Source of the DNA: Mesoterricola sediminis
GTDB lineage: Bacteria; Acidobacteriota; Holophagae; Holophagales; Holophagaceae
Direction: 5' to 3'
DNA: 64,000 nucleotides
NCBI RefSeq assembly: GCF_030295425.1
Contig: NZ_AP027081.1
Span: 372,001 to 436,000 of the forward strand
Positions 6,281-44,599 of the stretch are shown piece by piece. Below the pieces are notes generated by a model. It was given only the letters and a program-made list of their open reading frames with translations, had not been told where the DNA came from and ran no database searches. Positions within the stretch are counted from its first letter, which is position 1. Each line of letters begins with the position of its first letter. The position numbers were made by a program, and so were the translations under genes.

Positions 6281-7077
6281 CTACCATCCCAGGGCAGAGA
6301 AGCAGATGAGGCTGGCAGCAACCTTGAGGAAGGCCAGGTGGATATCAGCCCGCCTTTCGTAGCGAACCGTGAGGCGCCTGAAGTGCTTGAACCATGCGAA
6401 GGTCCGCTCGACTACCCAACGATGCTTGCCAAGCTTCTCTGCCGTTTCCACCCCGCGCCGCGCGATGCGGGAGAGCATGCCCCTGACTCTGCAGGCCATC
6501 CGGCAGCGGCGGAAGTCATAGGCCTTGTCGGCGTGCAGTTTCCTGAAGCGCCGCCGGGGGCGCCCACGACCATGGCGAAGCCCAGGCACGGCATCGATCA
6601 GCTTCTCGAATGGGACCGAGTCATGCTGGTTCGCAGGCCCCACCAGCACAGCCATCGGGATGCCATTGGCATCGGTGATCAGGTGGTGCTTGGTCCCGTT
6701 CTTCCCTCGGTCCGTGGGGTTCGGGCCGATCGCTTGGCCCCCCTTTTTGCCCTGATGCTCGAAGCATCCAAGGCGCCGCGCTCCCAATCAATTCGGCCTG
6801 CGTCGTTCAACTCCTCGAGCAGGATTCTATGGAGGTCGTCCCACACGCCGAGGTCATGCCACTCCTGGAGACGGCGCCAGCATGTCATGCCACTGCCGCA
6901 GCCCATCTCCTTCGGCAGATCCGCCCATCGGATGCCCGTCTTCAGGACGAACAGGATCCCCCGCAAGGCGTTCGGGTTGGGCACAGGAGGCCGCCCTCCC
7001 TTCGGCTTCGGCGTGGGCGGAGGCAGCAGCGGAGCGATGCGTTCCCAGAGCTCAGAGGGCAAGATTTCTCGGGCCAT
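6281..7077 (-). CDS. IS5-family transposase made by -1 frameshifting
   Basis: Two overlapping frames. The first (7077-6679) starts MAREILPSELWERIAPLLP and carries the DUF4096-like N-terminal domain (GGRPPVPNPNALRGILFVLK, IRWADLP, WRRLQEW). The second (6787-6281) carries the DDE part: GTKHHLITDANGIPMAVLVG, a DKAYD block, and RWVVERTFAWFKHFRRL with the catalytic Glu. Going from frame one to frame two needs a -1 slip. The overlap contains an A5G6 run (minus strand, 6738-6748), a suitable slippery site. The fused product would be about 265 aa, normal for the group. Confidence 0.85.
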
Positions 7078-7114
7078 CCAAGTACACTATGCACTCTTTC
7101 CCTGATGTACAAGG

Positions 7115-7132
7115 GGTTTTGTTACCACTTCT
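7115..7132 (-). repeat. Terminal inverted repeat, right end of IS5-family element
   Basis: Reverse complement identical to 6056-6073 and followed by the TA target duplicate at 7133-7134. Confidence 0.85.
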
Positions 7133-7219
7133 TATTCAGATGCCAGGCAGTGGTGATGGATGAATGCGATTGTCCGGAGTGGACGCGGGGAAAATCCAGT
7201 TGCGATCTGATGGGTCGAA

Positions 7220-7537
7220 TTAGCCACCTACGGGTGGTGCCACGCCATTCGCGCAGATCCAGGCGACGAGGGCTTGGGCCTCCTGGCCACGTGCAAGGTA
7301 CACGGTCCTGCCTTTCTCCATGTCGTTCCAGGTCAGGGTCCGGTTGATCCACTCCGGCACCATGCCTTCAACCGGAATCCGGATCTCCTTTTGCACGGCG
7401 ATGGGAACAGTGATCCCTTGGATGTTCACCCAGAAGGATGGAACATCCCTGAAAACCAGGTCGTTTCCGTCCCTCACGACGCTGCTCGGCAAGGGCCTGA
7501 GATGGGAATCCCGATTGATTGCCGGAAGTCCTATCAA
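7220..7537 (-). CDS. Unknown small soluble protein, third gene of a low-GC cassette
   Basis: A 105-aa protein with no recognised family. It contains beta-like segments (VPSFWVNIQGITVPIAV, EIRIPVEGMVPEWINRTLTW) and a final helix (GQEAQALVAWICANG), and has no signal peptide or membrane helix. Its ATG overlaps the stop of the preceding membrane gene as ATGA, so it is probably co-translated. Codon use is less GC-biased than in the host genes around it, as for the other two genes of the cassette, suggesting recent acquisition. The IS5-family element lies about 85 bp downstream. Confidence 0.55.
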   Translation of the reverse strand: MIGLPAINRDSHLRPLPSSVVRDGNDLVFRDVPSFWVNIQGITVPIAVQKEIRIPVEGMVPEWINRTLTWNDMEKGRTVYLARGQEAQALVAWICANGVAPPVGG

Positions 7538-7941
7538 GGGTTATTCCTGGGTTTCAATCCGTTGGCCACCTCATTCGTTTGAATGGAAGGCCGCAGGAAA
7601 AGGACCAAGGGAAGGGCGATGAAGAGGTTCGCAACCGTGGTGAGCAAACCGATGGCCGTCCAGGATTCTCGACCTAGCGGAGCGCCACCTGGTGCGATCC
7701 AAGGCCAGCGAAGAACGCCATAGGCCAGGCATGGAACCATCGCCGCGACAGAGAAATAGGCAAGCACCTTTGTTCGCTTTGAGGGGTGATTGGCGTGCCA
7801 GAACGTTGCGAGGAGGGCGACGACTTCAGCCAAGATGAAGGGCCATGCAAACCTGATGGCGCGGGCGTCGACAAGAATGGGCCAGAGCCCAGAGGCGAGT
7901 CCAATCACCTGGATGATGATGGGAATCCGGTTAGAGCGCAT
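7534..7941 (-). CDS. Unknown membrane protein with four predicted helices
   Basis: 135 aa from the ATG at 7941. Hydrophobic segments are IIIQVIGLASGLWPILV, FAWPFILAEVVALLATFW, VLAYFSVAAMVPCLAYGVL and a C-terminal AIGLLTTVANLFIALPLVLFL, giving four helices with basic loops (NHPSKRTK). No family is recognised. It overlaps the upstream gene by 11 bp and the downstream gene by 4 bp, the middle of a tightly packed three-gene unit. Longer starts exist on this strand but run back into the upstream gene. Confidence 0.55.
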   Translation of the reverse strand: MRSNRIPIIIQVIGLASGLWPILVDARAIRFAWPFILAEVVALLATFWHANHPSKRTKVLAYFSVAAMVPCLAYGVLRWPWIAPGGAPLGRESWTAIGLLTTVANLFIALPLVLFLRPSIQTNEVANGLKPRNNP

Positions 7942-8524
7942 GGCGGTGCTCCGGAGATGGCCGCCGCCGTTGGTTGAACCATATCCCTGCGACTGCAGAG
8001 GGAATGCAGAGCACGATGCATACAGCAAGGACCAGCGCCAAATCTGAAACCGAGAATGCCATCAACTTGTCTGGCAAATGATCGATGGATCTGGGTCCGA
8101 ACCCGGTTCTGAGGATGTCTGGCTGAACGTATCGATGGAATAAGAACCTCTCGTAACCGACCCATCCTGAATAGGTTGTGATTGCCATCAGGGTGGACCA
8201 TGCCAGGCCGACCCAAAGCGACAGCACAATCCATCCCCTTGCGATTCGGAGAGGTTCCAGGCGAATCACCGCGACTCCAACACCAAGGCCGACGACTTCA
8301 GTCAGGATGACCGCCAAGGCGATTCCAGCCAGGTCCCATGACCGCAGTTCCTCGCTGGTTGAGGACGTGATGGTCGATGCGAGTGTGGTCAGAAGGATGA
8401 AGCCGATCCATAGAATGCTTGGGAGGGAGAAGCAAAGAAGGACCTTCCTTGTGTGCCCCTGCCCCCCTTCCGCCGAAAGACAGGGCGTTTCTGGATCTGG
8501 GGGTCTGCCTGATTCAATCATCAT
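7931..8524 (-). CDS. Unknown membrane protein, first gene of a low-GC cassette
   Basis: 197 aa from the ATG at 8524 (a second ATG follows at once). A polar N-terminus precedes about four hydrophobic helices: LLCFSLPSILWIGFILLTTL, LAGIALAVILTEVVGLGVGV, ARGWIVLSLWVGLAWSTLMA and LALVLAVCIVLCIPSAVAGI. An extracytoplasmic-looking loop with several aromatic and charged residues lies between helices three and four. There is no known domain. It starts a three-gene unit (8524 to 7220) next to tRNA-Gln and an IS. Function is unknown; low GC relative to neighbours suggests transfer. Confidence 0.55.
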   Translation of the reverse strand: MMIESGRPPDPETPCLSAEGGQGHTRKVLLCFSLPSILWIGFILLTTLASTITSSTSEELRSWDLAGIALAVILTEVVGLGVGVAVIRLEPLRIARGWIVLSLWVGLAWSTLMAITTYSGWVGYERFLFHRYVQPDILRTGFGPRSIDHLPDKLMAFSVSDLALVLAVCIVLCIPSAVAGIWFNQRRRPSPEHRHAL

Positions 8525-8917
8525 GAGGCCCGGGATGTCGGGTATACGCCGAGGGGTCTGGGTCGGCCGGGATGGGAAGAAGATCCGGCGGGAGTTTCTC
8601 GCCAAGCAAGCCGAATGGGTGATGGTTGGACCAGGGTACATCATGGGGATCGAGCAGACCTGAGGATCCTCCCAAGGAGTACCGATGGAGGGGGCCTCTG
8701 CGGACTGGATCCTTGGAAGGCGGGAACAGCGGGGTGGCCCACCAAGGAGCAAAAGGCGGCAACGTGCGCTGGCGAATGGAACCCAAGTGGATCGTGGGTA
8801 TTCAGGAGCCTCGAAGGACTCGCCAGGTACCTAAGCAGGGTTGGATTCCGCCTGCTCCGCGCCCCGCCTGGCACTCCGTTGACAAGTCAGCCAGGAATCC
8901 CCGAGGCCCTGGCCCCC
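8525..8917 (+). other. Gene-poor stretch between membrane cassette and tRNA-Gln terminator
   Basis: About 390 bp without a convincing gene. It should hold the promoter of the minus-strand cassette. No repeat of the tRNA-Gln 3' end was found here, so an attachment site is not supported. Confidence 0.4.
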
Positions 8918-9179: not shown

Positions 9180-9725
9180 ATGGCGGATTCATTGAAACTG
9201 GCCTATTTCGTGGCGATGAAGGAGGGCGCCAGCTACCTGGGGGGGCTGCTCCTCACGGACGCGTCGGGGATCCCCCTCGACTTCCGGTACACCGAGCCCA
9301 TCACCCCCACGCGGCTGCAGGCGGTGCTCTACGGCAAGGCCCTTGAACCGCACCTGAAGGAGGAGGTGATCCAGAAGACCCTCCTCAAGGAGCTGAAGGC
9401 CCTGCCCGACCTCTTCATCCTGCCTCCCGCCGAGATGGCCGGGGGCTGGAGCGGCGACGCCAAGTGCCCGGCGCTGGCGGTGCAGAAGACCCAGGAGCAG
9501 CCCCTGGCCCGGGTGGGCGAGAGCTTCCGGGCGAGTCCCCGGGAGGTCCTGCTGCAGGTGGCGGAAGGCGCGGCCCCGCTGCGGGTGATCTTCGCGCAGT
9601 CGGTGGACCTCCCCGCCCAGGAGGCCGCCCTGGGCCGGCTCCTGGAGGCCGCCTACCACATGGATCCGGTGGAGCCCCTGGAGCGGGTCGCCGAGGCCCT
9701 CCAGACGCTCGTCAAGCCGGAGTAG
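9180..9725 (+). CDS. Conserved unknown protein, first gene of the signalling block
   Basis: A 181-aa soluble protein. It begins MADSLKLAYFVAMKEGASYL and has an alpha/beta pattern (GGLLLTDASGIPLDFRYTEP, LQAVLYGKALEPHLKEEVI). No family name can be given with confidence. The next gene follows after 2 bp, and that one overlaps an FHA-GGDEF gene, so the three are probably one transcript. There are no membrane segments and no recognisable catalytic motif. A partner role in the same pathway as the downstream diguanylate cyclases is an inference from position. Confidence 0.65.
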   Translation: MADSLKLAYFVAMKEGASYLGGLLLTDASGIPLDFRYTEPITPTRLQAVLYGKALEPHLKEEVIQKTLLKELKALPDLFILPPAEMAGGWSGDAKCPALAVQKTQEQPLARVGESFRASPREVLLQVAEGAAPLRVIFAQSVDLPAQEAALGRLLEAAYHMDPVEPLERVAEALQTLVKPE

Positions 9726-9727
9726 CC

Positions 9728-10516
9728 ATGGCGGCGGGGCGCCTGCGGGAGGCGATGGCGGACGTGGCGGAGACCCTCCGGCGCGTCTTCCGGGATCCGC
9801 CCACCCATGCCCTGGATCCGGCCCTGGCGCTGCCGGTCTCCAGGACCGTGCCCTTCCCCCGGACCCAGGCGCGGGCCGGGGCCCTCGCCTTCGCGCCGGC
9901 CACCGGGGAGGTGCCCGTCCTGGCCGCGGGGCTCCCGGGCGCCGTGGCCTTCCGCTGGGACGGCGTCCTCCGGGAGGAGCCGGGGCTGGCCCAGTGGGAC
10001 GCGGGCGCCCGGGTCTGCGACCTGCCCCTCTTCCGCGCCGGAAGCGCCGCGCGCCTCGAGGTGCCCCCGCTTCCGCGGGTGCCCGCTGTGCGAACGGAGG
10101 CCCCGGCGAGGTACGGGACCCGCAGTCGCGGGGGGCTGGAAGCCTTCCCGTCCCTGCCCACCCGGCAGGCTTCCTGCAGCCTCGCCGCCCCGCGGGCCCG
10201 GCGGGGCCTGGAAGCCGTCCTGGCCCTGCCCGTGGCCTTCCAGGGCGAGGACATCCCTTCCCTCTCCAAGGCGCTCTGGATGCGCTACACCCTGAAATTG
10301 GTGAAGGAAACAGGGCAAAACATACGTAATCTGGATGTGCTGGGCCTGTACCGCATCCCCGCCAAGGGGGTCCGTCAGGTCCATCACCAGGCTGCGACAG
10401 GCCGCTTGCTTGTCGCGCTCGGTCCGGAGGCGGAAGGGTCCACCCTGGCCCCCTTCGTGCTGGCCCGGAGGAAGGATGATGGTTCGATGGTGTGCTGTTA
10501 CGTGGAGGAGGTCTGA
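9728..10516 (+). CDS. Conserved unknown protein, second gene of the signalling block
   Basis: A 262-aa protein rich in Ala, Pro and Arg in the middle, with a more ordered C-terminal part (SLSKALWMRYTLKLVKETGQ, NLDVLGLYRIPAKG, FVLARRKDDGSMVCCYVEE). The N-terminal helix carries Arg/Glu repeats. No known domain is recognised. Its TGA shares one base with the ATG of the FHA-GGDEF gene (TGATG), a strong sign of translational coupling, and its ATG is 2 bp after the previous stop. Confidence 0.6.
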   Translation: MAAGRLREAMADVAETLRRVFRDPPTHALDPALALPVSRTVPFPRTQARAGALAFAPATGEVPVLAAGLPGAVAFRWDGVLREEPGLAQWDAGARVCDLPLFRAGSAARLEVPPLPRVPAVRTEAPARYGTRSRGGLEAFPSLPTRQASCSLAAPRARRGLEAVLALPVAFQGEDIPSLSKALWMRYTLKLVKETGQNIRNLDVLGLYRIPAKGVRQVHHQAATGRLLVALGPEAEGSTLAPFVLARRKDDGSMVCCYVEEV

Positions 10517-11490
10517 TGGCCTGGCCGGGTGAGGGGCCCGACAAGGAGTGGACGGCGGAATCGGAGGCCGTGGATCCCACGGTGCCGGTTTCCGGGTGGC
10601 CCGATTTCGAGACGGCCCTCCGCAAGCGCTTCCCCGGGGAGACGGGGCCGGTGCCCTGCGAGTACGTGGTGGTCGTCTACGCGGGGGCCCACCTGGGCCG
10701 TGTCTTCCCCCTCGTGCCGGGCGCCAACCTCATCGGCCGGAGCCCCCAGGTCGACATCGCCCTCCTGGACGAGGAGGTGAGCCGCGTCCACGCCACGATC
10801 ACCCTGCGGATGGAGGGCGCCCAGGAGCGCCTCCAGCTGGAGGACAACGGCAGCACCAACGGGACCTTCGTCAACGGGCGCCCCGTCCAGCGCGCCCAGG
10901 AACTGCACCCCGGCGACCGCATCGCCCTCGGCAACCACGTCCTCAAGCTGGTGGCCATGGACGCGATGGAGCGGGCCTTCCATGCCGTGCTCCTGGACCA
11001 GAGCACCCGGGACACCCTCACGGGCCTCGCCAACCGGCGCACGGTGCTGGAGGAGCTCCAGCGCCGCTTCGACCTGAGCCGGCGCCACCGGCGGCCGCTC
11101 TCCCTGGTCATGTGCGACCTGGATCACTTCAAGCGCATCAACGACACCCTCGGGCACCTGGCCGGCGACCAGGTCCTCCGGGACTTCGGGGCCCGCGTCG
11201 CCGGCGGACTCCGGACGACGGATGTGGCGGGCCGCATCGGGGGCGAGGAATTCCTCATCGTCCTGCCCGAGACGGACCGGGAGGGAGGCCTCCTCCTGGC
11301 CGAGCGGCTCCGCACCGCCGCGGCCTCGGAGCCGTACCACCTCCCCTCGGGCCCGGTGACCGTGACGTGCAGCATCGGCGTGGCCGAACGGCGCGAGGAG
11401 GACCGGGACGGGGGCGCCCTCATGGGGCGGGCCGACCGGGCCTTGTACCTGGCCAAGCGGGATGGCCGCAACCAAGTGGTCTGTGATTAG
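10516..11490 (+). CDS. FHA domain diguanylate cyclase (first copy)
   Basis: A 324-aa cytoplasmic protein that should make cyclic di-GMP from two GTP. Residues about 60-145 are an FHA domain, a phosphothreonine reader, with IGRSPQVDIALLDEEVSRVH and DNGSTNGTFVNGRPV. Residues about 165-320 are a GGDEF domain with an intact active site (RIGGEEF) and, five residues upstream, an RTTD inhibitory I-site. The gene is coupled to the preceding unknown gene. A very similar copy follows at 11580. FHA-gated control by a Ser/Thr kinase is plausible because a kinase gene ends the block. Confidence 0.92.
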   Translation: MAWPGEGPDKEWTAESEAVDPTVPVSGWPDFETALRKRFPGETGPVPCEYVVVVYAGAHLGRVFPLVPGANLIGRSPQVDIALLDEEVSRVHATITLRMEGAQERLQLEDNGSTNGTFVNGRPVQRAQELHPGDRIALGNHVLKLVAMDAMERAFHAVLLDQSTRDTLTGLANRRTVLEELQRRFDLSRRHRRPLSLVMCDLDHFKRINDTLGHLAGDQVLRDFGARVAGGLRTTDVAGRIGGEEFLIVLPETDREGGLLLAERLRTAAASEPYHLPSGPVTVTCSIGVAERREEDRDGGALMGRADRALYLAKRDGRNQVVCD

Positions 11491-11516
11491 CCCTTATAAA
11501 TAAGGCGTAAGGCGCA

Positions 11517-11545
11517 TTGACAAGGGCGGCGGCGGCCCCTTAAAT
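11517..11545 (+). promoter_or_regulatory. Candidate sigma-70-type promoter for the second FHA-GGDEF gene
   Basis: TTGACA at 11517-11522, a 17-nt spacer and TTAAAT at 11540-11545, about 35 bp before the start codon. The -35 box is a perfect consensus in an otherwise GC-rich region. It suggests the second copy can be expressed separately from the first. Confidence 0.55.
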
Positions 11546-11579
11546 GACATAGGATCCCCGTACCTTGCCGCTCCCCACC

Positions 11580-12536
11580 ATGCCAGAACAGCCTCCTCTT
11601 TCAGAGGAATTCCTGGACACCGACCCCCCGACGCTCTTCTCGTCGCCGCCGGGAGAGGGGCTCAGCTCGGCCACGGGCGAGTGGGCCCTCATCCGCTATG
11701 TGGGCAACCCCATCGGCGAGGTGCTGCCCCTCCGCAAGGACGACCTCACCATCGGGCGCTCCCCGGAGAACGATCTCTGCCTGGCCGAGGTGGAGGTCAG
11801 CCGCCGCCATGCGCGGATCGAGGTGGTCGGCCAGGAGGGCCAGGCCCCCCTCGTGCTCCTGTCGGACCTGGGGTCCACCAACGGCACCTTCGTGAACGGC
11901 CGCCGGGTGCTGCCCCGCAACGGCCCCGCCTCCCTCCAGAACGGCGACGTGATGCGGGTGGGGACCCACGCCTTCAAGCTGAAGTACCTCGACGAGATGG
12001 AGCGGACCTACCACGAGGCGGTGCTCGTGCAGTCCACGGTGGATTCGCTGACGGGCCTGGCGAACCGGGCCTCGGTGCTCGACTACCTGGAGCGCCACGC
12101 GGACCTCACCCGGCGCCACCGCCGCCCCCTCAGCCTCATCCTCTGCGACCTCGACCATTTCAAGGAGGTCAACGACGAGCATGGCCACGCCGCCGGGGAC
12201 CTGGTCCTGAAGCGCTTCGGGCAGGTGGCCCTGGGCCGGCTCCGGGCCTCGGACCATGTGGGGCGGATCGGCGGGGAGGAGTTCCTGGTCGTCCTGCCTG
12301 AGACCGAGGGTCCCGAGGCGGTGTCGGTGGCCGAGGAGCTGCGCAGGGCCCTGGCCGAGGAGGTGATGGAGGGCGCCGAAGGCGGTGCGGGCTTCCGGGT
12401 GACCTGCTGCTTCGGCGTGGCCCAGTTCCGGGCGGAGGACGCCGACGGCGGATCCCTCCTGGCCCGCGCGGACGTGGCCCTCTACCGGGCCAAGGCGCTG
12501 GGGCGGAACCGGGTCGAATTCGACGGGCGCTCATGA
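11580..12536 (+). CDS. FHA domain diguanylate cyclase (second copy)
   Basis: A 318-aa paralogue of the preceding gene with the same order: acidic N-terminal tail, FHA domain (IGRSPENDLCLAEVEVSRRH, DLGSTNGTFVNGRRV) and GGDEF domain with RIGGEEF and an RASD I-site. The linker between the domains is closely similar to the first copy (DEMERTYHEAVLVQSTVDSL). It therefore looks like a tandem duplication followed by divergence of the N-terminus. Its stop overlaps the ATG of the downstream Ser/Thr kinase (ATGA). The product acts in the cytoplasm. Confidence 0.92.
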   Translation: MPEQPPLSEEFLDTDPPTLFSSPPGEGLSSATGEWALIRYVGNPIGEVLPLRKDDLTIGRSPENDLCLAEVEVSRRHARIEVVGQEGQAPLVLLSDLGSTNGTFVNGRRVLPRNGPASLQNGDVMRVGTHAFKLKYLDEMERTYHEAVLVQSTVDSLTGLANRASVLDYLERHADLTRRHRRPLSLILCDLDHFKEVNDEHGHAAGDLVLKRFGQVALGRLRASDHVGRIGGEEFLVVLPETEGPEAVSVAEELRRALAEEVMEGAEGGAGFRVTCCFGVAQFRAEDADGGSLLARADVALYRAKALGRNRVEFDGRS

Positions 12537-13963
12537 ATCTGCTTCTGCCGCGGGCCATCGGGGGCGTGAGGGTCATGGAGCGCCTGGGGGAGGGCGGCAT
12601 GGCCGTCGTCCACCGGGCCGTCGATCCCCACCGGCCGGGGCTGGGTCTGGCCGTCAAGTTCCTGCGGCCGGAGACCGCCTCGAACCCCGAGGTGGTGGTG
12701 CGCTTCCTGCGGGAAGGGGAGGTCCTCAAGCGCCTGTCCCACCCGAACCTGGTCCGGGTGTTCGACTTCGGCAGGGCCGGCGCGGTCCCCTGGATCCTGA
12801 TGGAGCTGCTTCCGGGCGGCGATGTCCGCCGCTGCTGGGGCGAGGCTCCGGCGCGGCTGCTGCGGCGCCTCGTGCCGGTGGCGGACGCCCTCGCCGCCGC
12901 CCACCGCGCCGGCGTCGTCCACCGCGACCTCAAGCCCAGCAACCTGCTCTTCGACGAGGGGGGCCACCTCAAGGTGACCGATTTCGGCGTGTGCCTGTGG
13001 GAGGCCGGCGAAGGCACCCGGGTCACCCGCAGCCAGATGGTGGTGGGGACCCTGGGCTACATGGCGCCGGAACAGCACGGGGACCCGCGCAGGGTGGACG
13101 GCCGGTGCGATGTGTTCGCCCTGGGGGCCATCGCCTTCGAGTTCACCACCGGCAAGGCCTGGAGCCAGGTGCAGCTCCCGCCGGCCGCGGTCCGGCCCGG
13201 CTTCCCGCCCAAGCTCGCCCGGATCCTCATCCAGGCCCTCGCGCCCGATCCCGCCCGCCGGATCCCGTCCATGGAGGCCCTGGCCGCCGCCTGGTTGGAC
13301 TGGCTGGAAAGCGCGGAGGCGGCGGGCTGGGGGGACCAGCCCCTGCCCGGGTTCAACCCGGGTGAGCTGGAGCAGGAGACCGTCGCCCGCCCCCTGACCC
13401 GGACCGAGGAGGATCCCCAGGAGCGGCTGGGCCCCTACCTGGATGGCCTGCGCACGGGCGGCGTCGGCTCCCGGCGGGCCGCGGCCGAGGGCCTGGTCCG
13501 CGCGGCCCTGCCCGGGGACGAGGCCTGGCTCCTCCAGGCCCTGGCGCAGGCCCCGGAGGCCAGCCGCTTCGCCATCTGCGCCGCCCTGGGGGCCATCGGG
13601 ACCGCGGCCTCCCTGGCCCCGCTCCTGGCGCTCCTGGAGGATCCCTTCGCGCAGCGGGAGGGGGCGGAGGCCGCCAGCCTCATCGCCCTCCGGGAGGACC
13701 GCCAGGAGGAGGTGCTGGCGGCCTTGCGGGAACCCGGCCTGGGCTCGGCCTGGCGCTGGGTCCCCCGGGCCCGGCTGGGGGATGGGGCCTGGGTCCAGGC
13801 CCTCCTCGAGGGGTGGGACCGCCTGTCGGCGCCCCAGCACCTCCAGGCCCTGGATGCCGCCGGTCTGCTGCCCCCCGGGGCGCGGGCGCCGCTGAAGGAG
13901 GCCCTCCGCGCCTGGGCCCTCCGCACGGGAGGGCAGGCCTACAAGGTGTGGGAGGGGCTCTAG
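12533..13963 (+). CDS. Ser/Thr protein kinase with C-terminal HEAT-like region
   Basis: A 476-aa soluble eukaryotic-type kinase. The kinase domain spans about residues 8-265 with glycine loop LGEGGMAVVHRA, ATP lysine in LAVKFLRPE, catalytic loop VVHRDLKPSNLL, metal motif VTDFGV and GTLGYMAPEQ. After about residue 300 come short paired helices with a regular Ala/Leu pattern (SRFAICAALGAIGTAASLAP, LLALLEDPFAQREGAEAASL) that resemble HEAT/PBS-lyase repeats. There is no transmembrane helix. ATGA overlap with the FHA-GGDEF gene makes FHA-bearing cyclases the likely substrates or partners. Its stop codon forms CTAG with the stop of the convergent gene. Confidence 0.92.
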   Translation: MNLLLPRAIGGVRVMERLGEGGMAVVHRAVDPHRPGLGLAVKFLRPETASNPEVVVRFLREGEVLKRLSHPNLVRVFDFGRAGAVPWILMELLPGGDVRRCWGEAPARLLRRLVPVADALAAAHRAGVVHRDLKPSNLLFDEGGHLKVTDFGVCLWEAGEGTRVTRSQMVVGTLGYMAPEQHGDPRRVDGRCDVFALGAIAFEFTTGKAWSQVQLPPAAVRPGFPPKLARILIQALAPDPARRIPSMEALAAAWLDWLESAEAAGWGDQPLPGFNPGELEQETVARPLTRTEEDPQERLGPYLDGLRTGGVGSRRAAAEGLVRAALPGDEAWLLQALAQAPEASRFAICAALGAIGTAASLAPLLALLEDPFAQREGAEAASLIALREDRQEEVLAALREPGLGSAWRWVPRARLGDGAWVQALLEGWDRLSAPQHLQALDAAGLLPPGARAPLKEALRAWALRTGGQAYKVWEGL

Positions 13964-14541
13964 GGCCCTGGCTGGAGGAGATCCTGGAAGGGGGCTGGGT
14001 CCCAGCCCGCCGGAGGCCCCGGGTGGAGGACGGCGTGGGCCCCCGCGTAGAGGGCGCTCCACAGGACGCCCCGGACGGCGGGGGAGGCCAGGTCGGCCAG
14101 AGGGACCTGGACGCGGGTCTCGTGGTCCCATCCCAGGCGCCCGTTGAGGCGGCGGAGGCGGAGGAGGAGGTCCCCGTGCCCGAGGCCGGGCAGGAAGGGT
14201 GTGGCGGCCTCCAGGGCCTCCCCGCGGTCGTGGTAGGCCTGGCGCCCGCCCTCGTCGTTGAAGCGGGGGCCGCCCAGGAGCGCGGGGTCGCTTCCCAGGG
14301 CGGGGTCCCAGGCCAGCCCGCAGCAGGCGGCGGCCACCTCCGCAGCCCAGGCCCAGGGGCCGGCGCCCGCCGCGCCCGTGCGGGCATCGGCGGGCGGGGC
14401 GGCCATGAGGCCGAGGGCGATGCCCTCGACCCGGTTGCGGAAGGCCGGGTAGCGCAGGGTGCCCCAGTCCGGGGCGGTGAGGGCCGGCCGCTCCTGGAGC
14501 CGCGCGGCGCGCTGGATCAGGAGGTCCCGGAGCGTCTCCAA
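13960..14541 (-). CDS. Orphan protein resembling the N-domain of AMP-forming acyl-CoA synthetases
   Basis: 193 aa. The start (LLIQRAARLQERPALTAPDW, then TLRYPAFRNRVEGIALGL) matches the opening of the AMP-binding superfamily. A later GVLWSALYAGAHAVLHPG resembles the segment before the acyl pocket. The core A3 (TSGTTG-type) and A5/A8 motifs are absent, so an adenylation reaction is not expected. It could be a decayed remnant, though the frame is clean, or a binding-only protein. It sits 6 bp upstream of prs on the minus strand side and is convergent with the kinase; both stops share CTAG. Confidence 0.5.
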   Translation of the reverse strand: METLRDLLIQRAARLQERPALTAPDWGTLRYPAFRNRVEGIALGLMAAPPADARTGAAGAGPWAWAAEVAAACCGLAWDPALGSDPALLGGPRFNDEGGRQAYHDRGEALEAATPFLPGLGHGDLLLRLRRLNGRLGWDHETRVQVPLADLASPAVRGVLWSALYAGAHAVLHPGPPAGWDPAPFQDLLQPGP

Positions 14542-42607: not shown

Positions 42608-44599
42608 ATGCGCGCCGAGGCCCACCCCTCCCTCCCGTCCTCCCGCCCCCCCTGGGCCACCGAGGGCCGGAAGCTCGGCCGCTACCGCCTGGGGCCCAGC
42701 CTGGGGAAGGGGGGAATGGGGGAGGTCTTCCGGGCCTGGGACACCCTCCTGGACCGGGAGGTGGCCCTCAAGCTCCTGGGCGCCTCCCGGCCGGAGGCCC
42801 TGGTCCGGTTCATGCGGGAGGCCCAGCTCCAGGCCCGGGTGAACCACCCCAACGTCTGCCGGATCTTCGATGTGGAGGTGGCCGACGGGACCCCCTGCAT
42901 CGCCATGCAGCTGGTGGCGGGGCCCACCCTGCGGGAGGCCGCCCCGGGCATCGGACGGGACGAGGCCTGCGAGATCCTGGCCGGGGTCGCCCAGGCCATG
43001 CACGCCGCCCACCGCCTCAAGCTGGTCCACCGGGACCTCAAGCCCTCCAACATCCTCCTGGAGCGGGGCCCCGCGGGGGCGTGGATCCCCTACGTGGCGG
43101 ACTTCGGCCTTGCGAAGGACCTGGGGGAGGACCTGACGGCGGAAGGGGCCGTCGTGGGCACGCCCACCTTCATGGCCCCGGAGCAGCGCTGCGGGGACGG
43201 GGACCAGGTGGGACCCGCCACGGACATCTTCGCCCTGGGGGCCACCCTCTGCAGCGTCCTGGATCTGGAGCGGCCCCTGCCGGGGGGCGGCGGGGGCCTG
43301 GCGCCTCGGCCCGGCGAGCCCCGGGTGCCCCGGGACCTGAAGCGGATCCTCCGGCGGTGCCTGGAGGAGCGGCCCCAGGACCGCTACCCCACCGCGGCCG
43401 CCCTGGCCGAGGACCTGCGGCGCTTCCGGGACGGGGAGCCCCTCGCCGCGGACCGCGCCGGATGGGTCCGGGTCCTGCGGAAGGCCCTGCGGAACCATCG
43501 GGCCCCGGCGGCCGCCCTGGGGGCGGCCCTGGTCCTGGGCGGGGCCTTCGCGGCCTGGGCGGCCGTGCACCGTGCCGCCGAGAAGCGCCGCACCGTGCTG
43601 GCGCTGCGCTTCTCGGCGGAGGCCCGGGACCTGGAGGGGGCCATGGCGGCCGAACGCCTCCACCCGCCGCACGATCTGGCCCCCCTCCTGGACGAGATGA
43701 CCGAGGGCCTGGACCGGATCCGGGCCGACATGGAGGCGCTGGGGCCGGAGGCCCGGGGGCCCGGAAACCTGGCCCTGGGGCGGGGCTACCTCAGCATGCG
43801 CTTCCTGGAGCCGGCCCTGGCCGCCCTGGAGGAGGCCTGGCGCTGCGGGTACCACACCCCCGACACGGCGTACGCCCTGGCCAAGGTCCATTGCGAGTCC
43901 TACATCCGCCTCAAGGACGAGGAGCAGCTGGGGGACATCCGGCCCGCGCCGGACCGCGCGGCCCACCATCTGGCGGAGGCGCGGCGCTTCCTCGCGCGCG
44001 CCCAGGGCGCCACCTGGGAGCCGCCGGAACTCTGCGCGATCATGCTCCAGATCTTCGAGGGGGACGGGGAGGGGGCCCTGGTGGCCGCCCGGGCCCTCCA
44101 GGCCGAGGATCCCGCCTTCTACCCGGCCTGGCTGGAGGAGGCCTATGCCTGGACGAGCCTGGGCTGCCAGCGCCTGGATGCGGGGGACGAACCGGGCGCC
44201 CTGGAGCGGTTCCACCAGGCGGAGACGGCGGCCCTCCACGCCCGCACCGTGGGCCGGAGCGACATCACCGGCTACCTGGCCTCCCTGGATTGGCGCCTCC
44301 ATTGGCTGGCCAAGGCCCGGCTCCGCCCGGCGGAGTCCCTGCGGGTCTGGACCGAGGCGGAGGGCCTGGTGGAGACCGTCCTCGCCATGCGGGCCCGCTA
44401 CCCCCGGGCCCTGAGCGCCATGGTGGCGGTCCGGATCGGGAAGGCGCAGGCCCTCTACCGCCTCGGAGGGGATTGGCGGCGGGAATTGGACCAGGCGGAC
44501 GCCTTCCTGGACGCGGCCCGCCCCATCCCGGCGTACGCGTGGCTGCTTCCCGTCAAGCGGGCCCAGGTGGCCAGAACGAGGCGCGAGCTGACCTCCTGA
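42608..44599 (+). CDS. Membrane Ser/Thr protein kinase with TPR-like C-terminal region
   Basis: 663 aa. The kinase domain spans about residues 24-280 (LGKGGMGEVFRAWDTLLDRE, VALKLLG, LVHRDLKPSNILL, VADFGLAKD, VGTPTFMAPEQ) and is complete. One transmembrane helix follows at about 300-318 (ALGAALVLGGAFAAWAAVH). A large C-terminal region with TPR-like helices (YLSMRFLEPALAALEEAWRC, DPAFYPAWLEEAYAWTSLGC) comes last and would be outside the cytoplasm. This is the usual PknB-like order, opposite to the kinase at 18214-19794. No ribosome site precedes the ATG and AT-rich DNA lies directly upstream, so a leaderless mRNA is possible. Confidence 0.9.
   Translation: MRAEAHPSLPSSRPPWATEGRKLGRYRLGPSLGKGGMGEVFRAWDTLLDREVALKLLGASRPEALVRFMREAQLQARVNHPNVCRIFDVEVADGTPCIAMQLVAGPTLREAAPGIGRDEACEILAGVAQAMHAAHRLKLVHRDLKPSNILLERGPAGAWIPYVADFGLAKDLGEDLTAEGAVVGTPTFMAPEQRCGDGDQVGPATDIFALGATLCSVLDLERPLPGGGGGLAPRPGEPRVPRDLKRILRRCLEERPQDRYPTAAALAEDLRRFRDGEPLAADRAGWVRVLRKALRNHRAPAAALGAALVLGGAFAAWAAVHRAAEKRRTVLALRFSAEARDLEGAMAAERLHPPHDLAPLLDEMTEGLDRIRADMEALGPEARGPGNLALGRGYLSMRFLEPALAALEEAWRCGYHTPDTAYALAKVHCESYIRLKDEEQLGDIRPAPDRAAHHLAEARRFLARAQGATWEPPELCAIMLQIFEGDGEGALVAARALQAEDPAFYPAWLEEAYAWTSLGCQRLDAGDEPGALERFHQAETAALHARTVGRSDITGYLASLDWRLHWLAKARLRPAESLRVWTEAEGLVETVLAMRARYPRALSAMVAVRIGKAQALYRLGGDWRRELDQADAFLDAARPIPAYAWLLPVKRAQVARTRRELTS

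Follow-up and report, generated by a model that had tools for sequence, protein, structure and literature searches.

A conserved five-gene block in Mesoterricola sediminis encodes a Ser/Thr kinase beside two DgcB-like diguanylate cyclases

DgcB, other FHA tail switches and the Mesoterricola locus

The diguanylate cyclase DgcB (Bd0742) of Bdellovibrio bacteriovorus (PDB 6HBZ, 6HC0 and 6HC1) has an FHA domain whose ligand is the protein's own N-terminal tail, phosphorylated at Thr14. Tail binding activates the enzyme: when a disulphide held the tail fast against the FHA domain, the resulting mutant was strongly active. The kinase for DgcB was not identified (PMC6733907). The authors of that work also cite a kinase-tail-FHA-GGDEF fusion protein of Sorangium cellulosum (UniProt BE21_29150; PMC6733907). 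In GarA and OdhI, an N-terminal phospho-Thr tail likewise binds its own FHA domain after the action of a Ser/Thr kinase (PMC6733907 and general knowledge). Here we describe a block of five genes, A to E, from Mesoterricola sediminis (assembly GCF_030295425.1, contig NZ_AP027081.1, positions 372,001–436,000 of the forward strand), in which two DgcB-like cyclases are encoded together with a kinase. Coordinates refer to the window, that is, the whole stretch of 64,000 nucleotides that was analysed.

The cyclases, C and D, share with DgcB the tail-FHA-linker-GGDEF architecture, the GGEEF motif, the I-site and the FHA pocket residues, and C also shares a conserved Thr within a flexible N-terminal tail. 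In contrast to DgcB, one or two such cyclases here share an operon with a kinase and a pair of unnamed proteins, and position +3 of the tail motif is Arg in most C proteins rather than Val. As far as sequence can say, C and D would work like DgcB, the +3 residue apart. The Sorangium fusion, which we liken to the block by its description, also joins a kinase to a tail-FHA-GGDEF cyclase, but as one protein rather than separate genes, and A or B is not mentioned for it. GarA and OdhI differ in having no enzymatic domain, and they inhibit metabolic enzymes instead of producing cyclic di-GMP (c-di-GMP). The initial annotation of this DNA knew of no named system of such composition; our literature searches likewise found no description or name of the operon.

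We propose, giving the idea an even chance, that the block is a dedicated operon leading from phospho-threonine to c-di-GMP, in which a DgcB-type tail switch is encoded with its own kinase. Kinase E would be controlled by A, as a binding protein of endonuclease V-like fold without catalytic activity, and by B, as an adaptor, and would phosphorylate its linker as well as the tails at the N-termini of C and D. The phosphorylated tail would then fill the FHA pocket, as in DgcB, and its binding would free the GGDEF dimer for c-di-GMP synthesis, with the I-sites providing product feedback. Each phosphorylation, binding and activation step of this chain is one that we infer.

The gene set and order, the kinase, cyclase and FHA motifs and the conserved Thr sites can be read directly from the DNA. 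All five open reading frames (ORFs) of the initial annotation exist at the positions that it gave, on the plus strand, with these features:

9180..9725, plus strand: gene A, 181 aa, of an unnamed family; its predicted RNase H fold is endonuclease V-like, and catalytic acids are not conserved
9728..10516, plus strand: gene B, 262 aa; unnamed family, with an N-terminal helix, a middle part of low confidence and, at the C-terminus, a folded domain (about residues 165–262)
10516..11490, plus strand: gene C, 324 aa; FHA-GGDEF diguanylate cyclase, DgcB-like
10579..10581, plus strand: codon of C Thr22 (DPT22VP), a candidate phosphosite conserved in several genera other than Geothrix
10612..10614, plus strand: codon of C Thr33 (FET33ALR), a candidate phosphosite and the Thr kept in every C tail (52/52 homologues)
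10729..10932, plus strand: FHA domain of C, residues 72–139 (Pfam)
11005..11475, plus strand: GGDEF domain of C, residues 164–320, containing GGEEF and the I-site
11580..12536, plus strand: gene D, 318 aa from ATG, a TTG start at 11565 being possible; FHA-GGDEF diguanylate cyclase
11631..11633, plus strand: codon of D Thr18 (DPPT18LF); candidate phosphosite
11748..11963, plus strand: FHA domain of D, residues 57–128 (Pfam)
12036..12512, plus strand: GGDEF domain of D, residues 153–311, containing GGEEF and the I-site
12533..13963, plus strand: gene E, 476 aa; Ser/Thr protein kinase with a HEAT-like C-terminal part
13379..13381, plus strand: codon of E Thr283 (EQET283VAR) in the kinase-HEAT linker, invariant in 41/41 Holophagaceae homologues; candidate autophosphorylation site

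The three junctions described earlier are all present: the ATG of B lies two bases past the stop codon of A (the 2-bp gap at 9725), B and C overlap in TGATG at 10516, and D and E overlap in ATGA at 12533. The join between C and D, omitted from that description, is 89 bp long, or 74 bp with the TTG start of D. No terminator-like site was found in this gap, and a single transcript for all five genes is therefore likely; an RNA element in the gap is not supported (fold z-score 0.25, no unusual fold). Long antisense ORFs over the block, such as 12482–14131 on the minus strand, are most likely shadow ORFs of high-GC DNA.

Cyclase motifs and candidate phospho-threonine sites

C and D each have an N-terminal FHA domain followed by a GGDEF domain with intact catalytic motif and I-site, the combination that characterizes the DgcB type (Pfam FHA 2.9e-20 and GGDEF 2.9e-44 for C; 4.7e-19 and 3.9e-39 for D). 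The GGEEF motif and the RxxD I-site are intact in both proteins (RTTDVAGRIGGEEF, RASDHVGRIGGEEF), as the initial annotation had stated. The phospho-Thr pocket of the FHA domain is complete in C (R75, SRVH at 89–92, STNGT at 113–117) and in D (R60, SRRH at 74–77, STNGT at 99–103), and GGDEF, I-site and FHA residues are intact across nearly all C and most D homologues. The closest solved structure to C is DgcB itself, with a match of 5.3e-38 across the FHA and GGDEF domains. Hypr GGDEF enzymes, which synthesize cyclic GMP-AMP (cGAMP), carry Ser or Thr, not Asp, at the position of PleD D344 (PMC9140294). Neither residue was seen at that position in C or D of the window, which have Asp instead (GHLAGD and GHAAGD); Asp was also found in 51/52 C and 37/43 D homologues, the remainder giving no match to the search pattern. 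Given Asp at the specificity site, we rejected cGAMP synthesis by C or D.

The N-terminal tails of C are highly variable, yet one aligned Thr is kept in every one of the 52 C homologues, with Arg at +3 in 92% of them. An acidic-x-x-Thr site is present in 21 of 43 D tails, and the linker between the kinase and HEAT parts of E holds the invariant Thr283. An acidic residue stands at −3 in 52/52 C, 21/21 D having the Thr and 40/41 E, compared with 21% of all Thr in the same proteins, although these counts come from related genomes, are not independent, and concern sites chosen from alignments, not blindly. FHA-GGDEF tails in other families mostly hold a Thr with V, I or L directly after it. The initial annotation suggested that c-di-GMP synthesis is gated by Thr phosphorylation; such gating has indirect support from the invariant Thr residues in the C tail and the E linker, from FHA pockets that are intact, and from the fact that the nearest relative of solved structure is DgcB. 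The phospho-ligand is likely to be the cyclases' own N-terminal tail, rather than a separate partner alone.

Gene E matches Pkinase at 2.6e-34 and its kinase motifs are intact. Its earlier description as a HEAT-repeat Ser/Thr kinase thus stands for the kinase part, while HEAT_2 scores 4.4e-4 on E itself, under the Pfam cut-off, and is clear in kinases from related blocks (2.9e-8 and 2.7e-15). Outside the block, a 663-aa ORF at 42608–44599 of the window is Ser/Thr kinase-like by its N-terminal sequence.

A tentative alternative, appreciably less probable than the tail switch, is that the FHA domains serve to dock C and D, either on E through its phosphorylated linker or activation loop or on a different phospho-protein, giving a scaffolded kinase-cyclase complex. 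The linker Thr of E is invariant and has the acidic −3 residue of the tails. Moreover, a similar [DE]x[AP]T site occurs in the kinase linkers of family f52, whose block includes an FHA cyclase, and is not clearly seen in those of Acanthopleuribacteraceae, whose block does not. Docking, however, leaves the invariant Thr of the C tail and the DgcB precedent unexplained. Tail binding and docking may coexist.

Distribution of the block and of its parts

Class-level searches covered 93 genomes and were accompanied by reading of loci; 48 Holophagaceae genomes, with completeness of 90% or more and contamination of 5% or less, were counted as good. The A-B-C-D-E order is kept across most Holophagaceae genera, and the surroundings of the block are stable housekeeping contexts, with genes such as prs and murA. 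Of the good genomes, 32 have all of A, B and E and 15 have none of the three, the one exception (G080) holding A and B only. FHA-GGDEF is found in 32/32 genomes having A, B and E; the loci of G043 and G069 have the block minus D only. The G080 locus (L067:5877-6566), where kinase and cyclases are missing, has a 229-aa ORF with a signal-peptide-like start between A and B. In the tree, C and D form two fully supported clades (with a long-branch warning for G061), and because each spans the genera, the C-D pair appears to be old within Holophagaceae. The M. sediminis genome encodes flagellins and nine FHA domains in total, which makes motility a possible output and cross-talk possible. Upstream of the block, the stretch 6281–8752 has lower GC at third codon positions and an insertion-sequence transposase-like ORF (6281–6787, minus strand), and may be recently acquired DNA.

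In 12 good genomes without A, B and E, a single-copy FHA-GGDEF gene is left. In one Geothrix subclade the lone copy is C, and the three loci read there have it where the chromosomes of relatives carry the full block; in genus g7 it is D, which lies next to prs in locus L077. The cyclase can thus outlast its block partners, and may then either work on its own or be the target of a different kinase.

These lone cyclases weigh against the tail switch proposed above, as do the Arg at +3 of the C motif where DgcB has Val, the loss of the tail Thr from most Geothrix D proteins, and the replacement of GGDEF by GGAEF in D of three Geothrix (L068, L071 and L106). Since D in these three has also lost the tail Thr and the DxLT motif, it seems to be decaying there or becoming a non-catalytic FHA protein. 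The relatedness of the genomes and the choice of the Thr sites from alignments count on the same side, and the evidence for control of E by A and B consists of co-loss and gene order.

The initial annotation had proposed a check of synteny across Acidobacteriota, and the gene order proved to be conserved beyond Holophagaceae. A-B-FHA-GGDEF-kinase, with one cyclase, occurs as far as contigs extend in five genomes of f52, two of them cut short by contig ends, in one genome of f27 and in f28 (three complete and two partial), although no kinase was found in f28 locus L211. The arrangement is thus shared with three more families of the phylum rather than confined to this genome, and its conservation over about 50 genomes and several families puts the block beyond chance. 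A was traced to additional families by a profile scan across the phylum. In Acanthopleuribacteraceae (Sulfidibacter, Acanthopleuribacter and others), A is accompanied by a B-like gene and a HEAT kinase, with no cyclase between. Seen from that family, the FHA cyclases could be a late insertion into an A-B-kinase unit, a view that we dropped given the order in f52, f27 and f28. In G269, an f28 genome (L187:1-6520), A and a B-like gene stand beside genes that look by eye like type III CRISPR genes, without kinase or cyclase.

It is unlikely that the genes are mere neighbours, A-B-E forming one module and the FHA cyclases another under other kinases, with clustering reflecting co-expression only. 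The lone cyclases in the 12 genomes and the A-B-kinase arrangement of Acanthopleuribacteraceae would fit such independence, and a loose first search for E returned tens of kinase-like candidates per genome. The identical order in several families, the gene overlaps and the common Thr feature argue against it.

The A-B pair extends to a second phylum. In Synergistota, a B-like gene (assigned here and in f28 from position and size alone) directly follows A in nearly all loci read. At L146:4086-9642 the pair comes after cheC, cheD, a sigma factor gene, fapA and a 102-aa ORF, and an S1-domain gene is next; L134, L136 and L163 are arranged similarly. No kinase or FHA cyclase was found at these four loci. 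Since the pair occurs there without them, A and B are not specific to the kinase-cyclase block, and the pair is either of earlier origin than the kinase and cyclase genes or more mobile than they are. The scan of named genomes relied on two peptide patterns alone and does not establish absence of A-B elsewhere.

Proteins A and B and the significance of the block

Neither A nor B has a Pfam or NCBIfam match. The structure predicted for A (predicted local distance difference test 91.7) resembles endonuclease V in fold and strand order (Foldseek; PF04493, E 1.8e-8, probability 1.00), with moderate TM-scores of only 0.45–0.61; PIWI domains also resemble it, but less. Unlike endonuclease V, A has no conserved catalytic acids. 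A profile comparison between the two was not significant (P 0.19), although the register was as expected, and in this weak alignment the DG motif of endonuclease V falls on a non-acidic stretch of A. No conserved acidic triad was found in the A family alignment, and a PDB sequence search with A gave chance-like matches alone, the top one a repeat protein. We therefore rejected A as an endonuclease V, for want of a significant sequence match and of conserved catalytic acids. With these acids not conserved and the DG motif replaced, A is probably a binding protein, not a nuclease.

The model of B has an initial helix, a low-confidence middle and a folded end; Foldseek found no match for it, most of the model being of low confidence. 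Against the Holophagaceae B profile, the B proteins from f52 and f27 score 7.9e-6 to 1.2e-4, and profile homology between the B proteins of Holophagaceae and Acanthopleuribacteraceae is weak (P 0.014). Because A and B are lost together with E, it is plausible that they serve as input or scaffold for the kinase. A more specific and decidedly improbable version makes them an undescribed sensor pair, in which a pseudo-nuclease of endonuclease V/PIWI fold would sense a nucleic acid or nucleotide and, via B, set the kinase that switches c-di-GMP synthesis in Acidobacteriota, and would act on motility in Synergistota.

There is very little to recommend the block as anti-phage defence, in which E would be a kinase of the PD-T4-6 kind and A a component resembling a nuclease or Argonaute: PADLOC PD-T4-6 models match E (1.2e-58) and the predicted fold of A recalls PIWI, but the kinase match essentially covers the generic kinase domain, A to D gave no PADLOC defence match, A has no conserved catalytic acids and the block sits in its stable prs and murA contexts, so that E as a PD-T4-6 defence kinase was rejected.

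A and B are two unnamed families that travel together across two phyla and adjoin c-di-GMP or chemotaxis/flagellar genes. For a tail switch of the DgcB type, a candidate kinase sits here in the same block as the cyclases. With a kinase encoded beside DgcB-like cyclases in several families, the putative chain from kinase through tail and FHA domain to cyclase becomes testable with four or five proteins.

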